A stretch of 64,000 nt of DNA from Chroococcidiopsis sp. CCMEE 29 (GTDB lineage: Bacteria; Cyanobacteriota; Cyanobacteriia; Cyanobacteriales; Chroococcidiopsidaceae). The DNA is taken from positions 2,722,001-2,786,000 of the forward strand of contig NZ_CP083761.1 in assembly GCF_023558375.1 (NCBI RefSeq). The letters are read 5' to 3'. Below are positions 40,417 to 42,147 of this stretch, in pieces. The number at the start of each line of letters is the position of its first letter. Position 1 is the stretch's first letter. The translations under genes and the position numbers were made by a program. The notes below the pieces were generated by a model. The model was not told where the DNA came from. It saw only the letters and a list, made by a program, of their open reading frames with translations, and ran no database searches.

Positions 40417-40512
40417 CAATAAAAGGAGTCAGGAATAGAAGTGTACGGGGATTGCGATCGCTCTTTGGCATAGAACCGAACCTGCGACACTGAAGCGTTA
40501 AGCTAATTTTTA

Positions 40513-40597
40513 TTCAGGAAGCTTGAGATTGAGCCTCCTGAATTATAGAGCAAGTAATCAATTCCGGCGTTCAGGAAGCTTGAAATTGAGTCTTCTA
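40513..40597 (+). repeat. Direct repeat in the hsp20 upstream region
   Basis: TTCAGGAAGCTTGAGATTGA (start 40513) recurs at 40570 with one change (GAAATT for GAGATT), then diverges. The first copy continues to CCTCCTGAA and can fold on itself. It may be a control element of the heat-shock gene or a past duplication of the leader. Confidence 0.55.
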
Positions 40598-40620
40598 AAA
40601 TCAAACTTAAATTTTAGAGG
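40592..40620 (+). promoter_or_regulatory. Putative RNA thermometer hairpin at the first hsp20 ribosome site
   Basis: CTTCTAAAAT (40592-40601) pairs with ATTTTAGAGG (40611-40620) through ten pairs, one of them G-U, around a 9-base loop. The 3' arm contains the ribosome site AGAGG, nine bases before ATG 40630. The weak A-U core is what is needed for melting on heating. Confidence 0.6.
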
Positions 40621-40629
40621 TGACAACAT

Positions 40630-41070
40630 ATGGCACTGACTCGTTGGGAACCCTTCCGGGAAATTGACACTTTACAGCGACAAATGAATCGCTTATTTGA
40701 TAGCCTGGCGACCACAGATGGTGGTGAAAATGCTAGTTTCTCCTTCGTGCCTGCTGCCGAAATGCAAGAAACTGAAGACGCGATTCATCTGAGACTAGAA
40801 ATTCCTGGTATGGAAGCAAAAGATCTAGATGTACAAGTTACCGCCGAAGCAGTTTCCATTAACGGTGAGCGGAAGTCGGAAACTAAAACTGAAGACAAAG
40901 GGGTAACTCGTTCTGAGTTTCGTTACGGCAAATTCCAGCGGGTGATACCCTTACCTGCCAGAATTCAGAACGACAAAGTGCAAGCTGAATACAAAAATGG
41001 TGTTCTAAACCTAACCTTGCCGAAAGCTGAATCGGAAAAGAATAAAGTTATCAAAGTTAATCTTGGGTAA
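40630..41070 (+). CDS. Small heat shock protein, Hsp20/alpha-crystallin family
   Basis: The 146-residue chaperone holds unfolding proteins in large oligomers. The N-terminus ALTRWEPFREIDTLQRQMNRLFDSL is typical of cyanobacterial HspA. The alpha-crystallin domain is about residues 45-135 (AEMQETEDAIHLRLEIPGM, VQVTAEAVSINGERKSE), with the closing ADLP-type GVLNLTLPKAE (about 123-133) and the I-x-V tail IKVNLG. The ribosome site AGAGGTGA is built into a hairpin. It is the first gene of the hsp20-hsp20-dnaK'-dnaJ-cbpM cluster. Confidence 0.93.
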   Translation: MALTRWEPFREIDTLQRQMNRLFDSLATTDGGENASFSFVPAAEMQETEDAIHLRLEIPGMEAKDLDVQVTAEAVSINGERKSETKTEDKGVTRSEFRYGKFQRVIPLPARIQNDKVQAEYKNGVLNLTLPKAESEKNKVIKVNLG

Positions 41071-41197
41071 TTGTCTCTGATTTAGCTAGCATAACGCAAC
41101 AGTAGTTCTGTGTACCCTGATACGACGATAAGGATATCGCTCTAGTGATTGATGAGCCAGCTTTTGGTCTTTCATATGTTCGAGTTGAGCGTTGAAG

Positions 41198-41226
41198 CTC
41201 TAAAAATTACTTGATACTTTGGAGGT
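41198..41226 (+). promoter_or_regulatory. Possible RNA thermometer hairpin at the second hsp20 ribosome site
   Basis: CTCTAAA (41198-41204) pairs with TTTGGAG (41218-41224) through seven pairs (one G-U) over a 13-base loop. The 3' arm covers GGAG of the strong ribosome site GGAGGT before ATG 41233. It is weaker than the first hsp20 hairpin. Confidence 0.4.
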
Positions 41227-41232
41227 AAAACT

Positions 41233-41769
41233 ATGGCATTAGTTCATTGGGAACCTTTCCGAGAAATTGAAAGCCTGCAACGTGAGATGAACCGCCTATT
41301 TGAGCGCATGATGCTTCCGACTGAGCGCTCTGACGTTATGGCTGCTGGACCTGCTTTTATACCCCCGGCGGAAATGCATGAAGCCGCCGATCGGATCACC
41401 CTCAAAATGGAAGTGCCTGGCATAGAAGCCAAGGATCTTGATGTTAAAGTTACGGCTGAAGCGGTTGCTATCAGTGGCGAACGCAAATCTGAAATCAAGA
41501 GCGACGAAAGAGGCATGCAGCGTTCCGAATTCCGCTATGGCAGATTCCAACGGGTCATTCCCTTGCCAGCTCGAATTCAGAACGACAAGGTGCAAGCTGA
41601 ATTTAAGAACGGTGTCTTATGCTTGACAATGCCTAAAGCTGAGGAAGAAAAGAACAGGGTCGTCACCATTAACCTGGGAGGACAAACTCACCAAGGGCAA
41701 ATTGAGCCAGGACATCAGGTCAATGGTCAACCTGCAACCCAACCTCAGGAGCAGAACCAACCTGCATAA
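41233..41769 (+). CDS. Small heat shock protein, Hsp20/alpha-crystallin family (second copy)
   Basis: At 178 residues it is a paralogue of the gene 163 bases upstream, with the same N-terminus (ALVHWEPFREIESLQREMNRLFERM), the same crystallin domain (about 52-140) and GVLCLTMPKAEEEKN. It differs by a 35-residue Gln/Pro-rich tail after the crystallin domain (GQTHQGQIEPGHQ onward), which relatives often lack. The ribosome site GGAGGT is strong but may be hidden in a small hairpin. A strong terminator follows at 41848. Confidence 0.93.
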   Translation: MALVHWEPFREIESLQREMNRLFERMMLPTERSDVMAAGPAFIPPAEMHEAADRITLKMEVPGIEAKDLDVKVTAEAVAISGERKSEIKSDERGMQRSEFRYGRFQRVIPLPARIQNDKVQAEFKNGVLCLTMPKAEEEKNRVVTINLGGQTHQGQIEPGHQVNGQPATQPQEQNQPA

Positions 41770-41939: not shown

Positions 41940-42147
41940 GTTGAACGCCTGGTCAAGGCTGCGGAAGCTCACGCGGCTGAGGACAGAAAGCGCCGCGAAC
42001 AAATTGACACTAAGAACATGTCCGCTGAAATGACCGTAATATCTCTCCCTCACCCCCTGCCCCTCTCCCAAGCTTGGGAGAGGGGTGCCGGAGGCGGGGT
42101 GAGGGCTACTAAGATTATGGGCAATTAACCGGATTTGATCTAAGAAC
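41940..42147 (+). pseudogene. dnaK remnant split by a 130-bp insertion
   Basis: Bases 41940-42019 encode VERLVKAAEAHAAEDRKRRE and QIDTKN, the end of the substrate domain and lid start of DnaK. The frame then enters foreign DNA and stops at 42126. The foreign DNA (about 42021-42139) is bounded by an 11-base direct repeat CTAAGAACATG (42010-42020 and 42140-42150). Removing one repeat plus the insert restores an unbroken DnaK frame into the gene at 42148. Its centre is a GC-rich palindrome, CCTCTCCCAAG/CTTGGGAGAGG (about 42051-42072), flanked by CCTCACCCC and GGGGTGAGG. Confidence 0.75.

Follow-up and report, generated by a model that had tools for sequence, protein, structure and literature searches.

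The two neighboring hsp20 genes in a 64,000-nucleotide stretch of the 6.39 Mb genome of the cyanobacterium Chroococcidiopsis sp. CCMEE 29 (the window) raise the question of whether the leader of one or both genes senses temperature. Both genes, hsp20-1 (40630-41070, 146 amino acids) and hsp20-2 (41233-41769, 178 amino acids), are on the forward strand, as are the leader and promoter elements described below, and both proteins have an HSP20 domain. A first-pass annotation of the window proposed a pair of RNA thermometers of different strength, one per leader, that could give a stepwise heat response. We consider with moderate confidence that leader 1 is homologous, though divergent, to the long Avalong-type RNA thermometer found in Nostoc-like cyanobacteria, and that it masks the Shine-Dalgarno (SD) sequence and opens on heating. 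In leader 2, we see an ordinary intergenic leader and no such thermometer.

Leader 1 spans about 115 nucleotides (~40516-40629). Its ribosome site, AGAGG (40616-40620), is in the right arm, ATTTTAGAGG/AUUUUAGAGG (40611-40620), of a stem that has CTTCTAAAAT/CUUCUAAAAU (40592-40601) as its left, or anti-SD, arm. The ten pairs, one of them G-U, that the first-pass annotation drew over AGAGG were found exactly so. In a 40512-40660 transcript, the ten pairs have predicted probabilities of 0.94-1.0 at 25 °C, and these fall to 0.79-1.0 at 45 °C; the values vary with the assumed transcript ends. Opening the SD costs 9.1 kcal/mol versus 5.0 kcal/mol in shuffled sequences when 60 nucleotides upstream are included (p = 0.033; with 115 nucleotides, p = 0.073), and in the energy models this cost drops as the temperature rises. 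Among 63 genes used as a background, from 17 stretches of this genome plus the window, 3-5% match leader 1 in stem length or opening cost. The length of the stem is not exceptional, as dinucleotide shuffles of leader 1 reach 10 bp in 16-17% of the cases (p = 0.16-0.17); it is the homology described below that gives firm evidence. ROSE elements have a UUGCU-type motif opposite the SD; this motif is absent from leader 1, where the opposing strand is CUUCUAAAAU, and so is the fourU pattern, since CUUCU opposes AGAGG.

The hsp20-1 transcript probably starts at ~40508-40516, upstream of the left arm, because a conserved promoter block and a -10-like element end just before 40516. The block (40443-40482), which we take to be a K-box-like heat promoter element, consists of GTACGGGGATTGCGATCGC (40443-40461) and AGAACCGAACC (40472-40482) and is kept before the leaders of relatives. 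The -10-like AAGCTAAT (40500-40507) aligns with GATCTAAT of the relatives, whose leaders are preceded by a conserved GTACGGTTATTGCGATCGC..ATAAAACCGAACCTACT..GATCTAAT that ends just 5' of AGGAAGCTT. It is thus unlikely that transcription starts 3' of the left arm, which had been named as a finding that would tell against a thermometer. An inverted pair, GTTCGG/GTACGG..TTGCGAT..AACCGAAC, precedes most of the hsp20 leaders of the order, including unrelated leader types, and it is missing 5' of hsp20-2.

Which known system does leader 1 resemble? The first-pass annotation compared it with Synechocystis hsp17, which is also a cyanobacterial hsp20 leader with a stem over the SD. However, according to PMC4477652, the hsp17 start codon lies within stem I of one short hairpin, whereas the AUG of leader 1 (40630) is outside the claimed stem, which ends at 40620; furthermore, leader 1 has ~115 nucleotides and two copies of one element. 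Therefore, the long hsp20 leader of Anabaena variabilis, represented in Rfam by RF02698 (Avalong), is a better comparison. This leader, a tested temperature sensor, is reported to control SD access and to have an additional extended hairpin (PMC4166951, citing Cimdins et al. 2014). Because this relative is reported to do so, we infer the heat response of leader 1, its direction and its size, by analogy.

Positions 1-131 of the RF02698 model align end to end with 40515-40635, upstream of hsp20, with 23.7 bits and an E value of 0.008-0.038. The two leaders share a similar length, the extended hairpin and the SD stem, and the relatives have the promoter block of leader 1. The hsp20 leaders of Nostoc, Fortiea, Komarekiella and others have a common motif, AAGCTTGARATTGAGCCTCCTAAGA..TCTTAGAGGTGATA..ATG; two of these leaders, L254 and L031, score 160.6 and 149.8 bits, respectively, with RF02698, so that the relatives bridge the window leader to the Rfam family. 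The homology also holds independently of structure. A sequence-only model that leaves out the window and draws on 23 other leaders from cyanobacteria has leader 1 as its top match in the Chroococcidiopsis genome (37.6 bits, E = 1.1e-8); the copy-1 repeat within leader 1 itself comes second (E = 0.011), and nothing else is below E = 2. Leader 1 differs from the Rfam family in that one of its repeat copies is nearly complementary to the other over the full length, that it has no ROSE-like G/C pattern opposite the SD, and that the Rfam structure has no competing helix of the type described below.

A structured model, which included the window leader in its building, was used for genome-wide counts. 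In the Nostoc-type family, 101 of 218 genomes have the leader before hsp20 genes at E = 1e-4; in a second family, two of 50 genomes have it, at two separate hsp20 loci. Across the order, it is present in 51 of 391 genomes at E = 0.01, although a few of the weakest matches, for example L192, L195 and L196, seem to be spurious. Within the window's own family, the hsp20 leaders that were seen besides leader 1 belong to different types, apart from one marginal and doubtful match. Genomes G305 and G317 have two separate hsp20 loci apiece, each with an Avalong-type leader (L174, L182, L184 and L179), so that two leaders of this class truly coexist within a single cell.

The picture of a single stem turned out to be incomplete. 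Leader 1 contains two copies of AGGAAGCTTGARATTGAGYCTYCT, which had been missed and which compete for the left arm. Copy 1 (40516-40542) consists of elements 1A (AGGAAGCTTGA, 40516-40526) and 1B (TTGAGCCTCCTGAA, 40529-40542), and copy 2 (40570-40596) consists of elements 2A (TTCAGGAAGCTTGA, 40570-40583) and 2B, the latter continuing into the anti-SD arm (40586-40601). Element 1B pairs with 2A, which corresponds to the extended hairpin in the Avalong model; a 1A:2B helix and the SD would be rivals for the anti-SD strand. RNAalifold, given 27 leaders and no structure, returned the pairing between the two copies (1A:2B and 1B:2A) and did not return the SD stem.

Coupling between the elements was examined in 42 representative leaders, clustered at 85% identity. 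When elements are swapped between species, the 1A:2B and 1B:2A duplexes become weaker than the native ones (p = 0.0002 for each), and there is no coupling for 2B:SD (p = 0.68), 1A:1B (p = 0.28) or 2A:2B (p = 0.92). Against a tree null, in which substitutions are redistributed, the p values are 0.0025 for 1B:2A, 0.032 for 1A:2B and 0.0025 for both jointly, as compared to 0.037 (marginal) for 1A:1B, 0.11 for 2A:2B and 0.31 for 2B:SD; column-wise tests point in the same direction. Local hairpins inside each copy were considered as well and were rejected, as they lack between-species coupling in the swap test, though 1A:1B has the marginal value given above under the tree null.

The same 42 leaders have a mean SD opening cost of 3.5 kcal/mol, which rises to 4.5 kcal/mol when copy 1 is shuffled (p = 7e-6) and to 4.0 kcal/mol when it is taken from another species (p = 1e-4). 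Leaders that are cut from 2A onward mask the SD above shuffles (5.4 versus 4.4 kcal/mol, p = 0.036), whereas the whole leaders do not (3.5 versus 4.2 kcal/mol); the p values in these comparisons are inflated by the kinship of the sequences. These results imply that copy 1 acts in silico as an anti-anti-SD element and that, in the models, the anti-SD strand has two mutually exclusive partners, the SD and 1A.

Three leaders from one genus (L191, L274 and L277; genomes G383, G403 and G404) have a single copy and look like deletions between the copies. They retain GGAAGCUU..GAGCUUCC as a local, 1A:2B-like hairpin. In two of the three, the SD is under a small hairpin that is new, AUUGCUUC-uaau-GAGGUGAU.

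The homology, the conserved promoter, the ten-pair SD stem and the complementarity kept between the copies are computed features, and we propose the following mechanism around them. At growth temperature, the anti-SD strand (40592-40601) would cover AGAGG and limit hsp20-1 translation. Heat would melt the A-U-rich SD stem and expose AGAGG, and the freed anti-SD strand could then be captured by copy 1 at the 5' end of the leader, which would help to hold the ribosome site open. Extending this to the class, we tentatively suggest that the long hsp20 leaders may be two-state switches rather than simple zippers, in which 1A, as anti-anti-SD, rivals the ribosome site and the two copies set a bistable heat response. 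This suggestion is a good deal more speculative than the assignment of leader 1 to the Avalong class.

Several observations weigh against these proposals. The 23.7 bits of leader 1 are far under the RF02698 gathering score of 154 bits; because the evident relative L031 also misses it, this cut-off encloses near-identical sequences. The SD stem has no covariation signal among the relatives, in a test of low power since the SD hardly varies, and, as noted above, the whole leaders of the relatives are not more masked than shuffles. In the window leader, the two states are within a few kcal/mol of each other and the assumed transcript ends decide which one wins, and ViennaRNA gave no consistent temperature crossover of the two states in the 42 relatives. 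Therefore, the direction of the switch is not readable from the energies, and the switch stays a proposal.

Leader 2 presents a different case. The claimed second stem (41198-41224) is present as drawn, with seven pairs, one of them G-U, between CUCUAAA (41198-41204) and UUUGGAG (41218-41224), covering GGAG. However, its length is at the level of chance (p = 0.42-0.48 against shuffles), and its bases are also used by GAGC-guugaa-GCUC and an outer helix, which leaves it a probability of 0.001 at 25 °C and of 0.06-0.08 at 45 °C. With 60 nucleotides upstream, the opening cost is under the shuffled mean (p = 0.71); with 115 nucleotides, a different, more distant upstream partner is predicted to cover the site (p = 0.04). 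The left arm is not conserved, and beyond the SD and the start codon there is hardly any likeness to other genomes. An AACCGAA box is absent before leader 2, and in its family no orthologue of hsp20-2 was found that is closer than the hsp20-1 type. Leader 2 was consequently rejected as a thermometer, and with it go the pairing of thermometers and the stepwise response.

This bears directly on the possibility that two independent zipper thermometers of unequal strength give both hsp20 genes a stepwise response. Either stem can be drawn over its SD, and Pseudomonas putida hspX/hspY is a precedent for two RNA thermometers in one hsp operon (PMC4166951), but here the first of the two leaders alone is supported, the stem of leader 2 being at chance, with a probability <0.1 and an unconserved left arm; we regard this explanation as very unlikely. 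The leader 1 stem might itself be a chance product of an A-U-rich leader, given that ~16% of shuffles have an equally long one. As diverged genomes share both leader 1 and its promoter and the copies are kept complementary, chance is a highly improbable explanation.

Two further explanations accept the conservation and assign it another role. The repeats could be a DNA operator, each palindromic copy being bound by a heat-shock repressor just 3' of the transcript start, with the RNA pairing as a by-product. Each copy is indeed roughly palindromic (AAGCTtgagattgAGCTT), the single-copy leaders keep a perfect palindrome, and the 1A:1B complementarity is marginally over the tree null (p = 0.037). 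However, an operator predicts matching within the copies, and in the swap test the matching is between them (1A:2B and 1B:2A, as opposed to 1A:1B and 2A:2B); the distance between the copies also varies widely, and we consider an operator unlikely. Alternatively, the extended hairpin could be a 5' stabilizer that protects the mRNA from RNases, the SD stem being incidental. Conservation is stronger for the extended hairpin than for the SD stem, which is without covariation, and the single-copy leaders retain a 5' hairpin. Against this are the masking of the SD beyond shuffles in leaders cut from 2A onward (p = 0.036) and the control of SD access reported for the A. variabilis relative (PMC4166951), which make a role in stabilization alone quite unlikely. 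The divergent Avalong-type thermometer thus continues to be the explanation that we favor.

Cyanobacterial hsp20 leaders were already known to include thermometers, one of them with an extended hairpin (PMC4166951, PMC7760821). As far as the literature examined shows, the breadth of the class and the divergent window homologue with its nearly complementary copies are apparently new. Conserved competition for the anti-SD strand may also be new. A thermometer class that Rfam recognized near one species alone is now found in about half of the searched Nostoc-type genomes and a few outside the family, and it has a conserved competing helix, for which simple masking of the SD gives no explanation.

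The two hsp20 genes are followed on their 3' side by a DnaK-C-terminal-like open reading frame, DnaJ and a CbpM-like open reading frame with a MerR_2 domain. A third hsp20 gene of the genome (G000:C1, ~1945448, minus strand) has SD masking that is not unusual. The short open reading frame at 42148-42438 matches the C-terminal end of HSP70 alone (PF00012 positions 534-598) and adjoins DnaJ and the CbpM-like gene. Between hsp20-2 and this reading frame, at ~42042-42107, is a G+C-rich inverted repeat, CCCTCACCCCCTGCCCCTCTCCC..GGGAGAGGGG..GGGGTGAGGG, which resembles a dispersed repeat.
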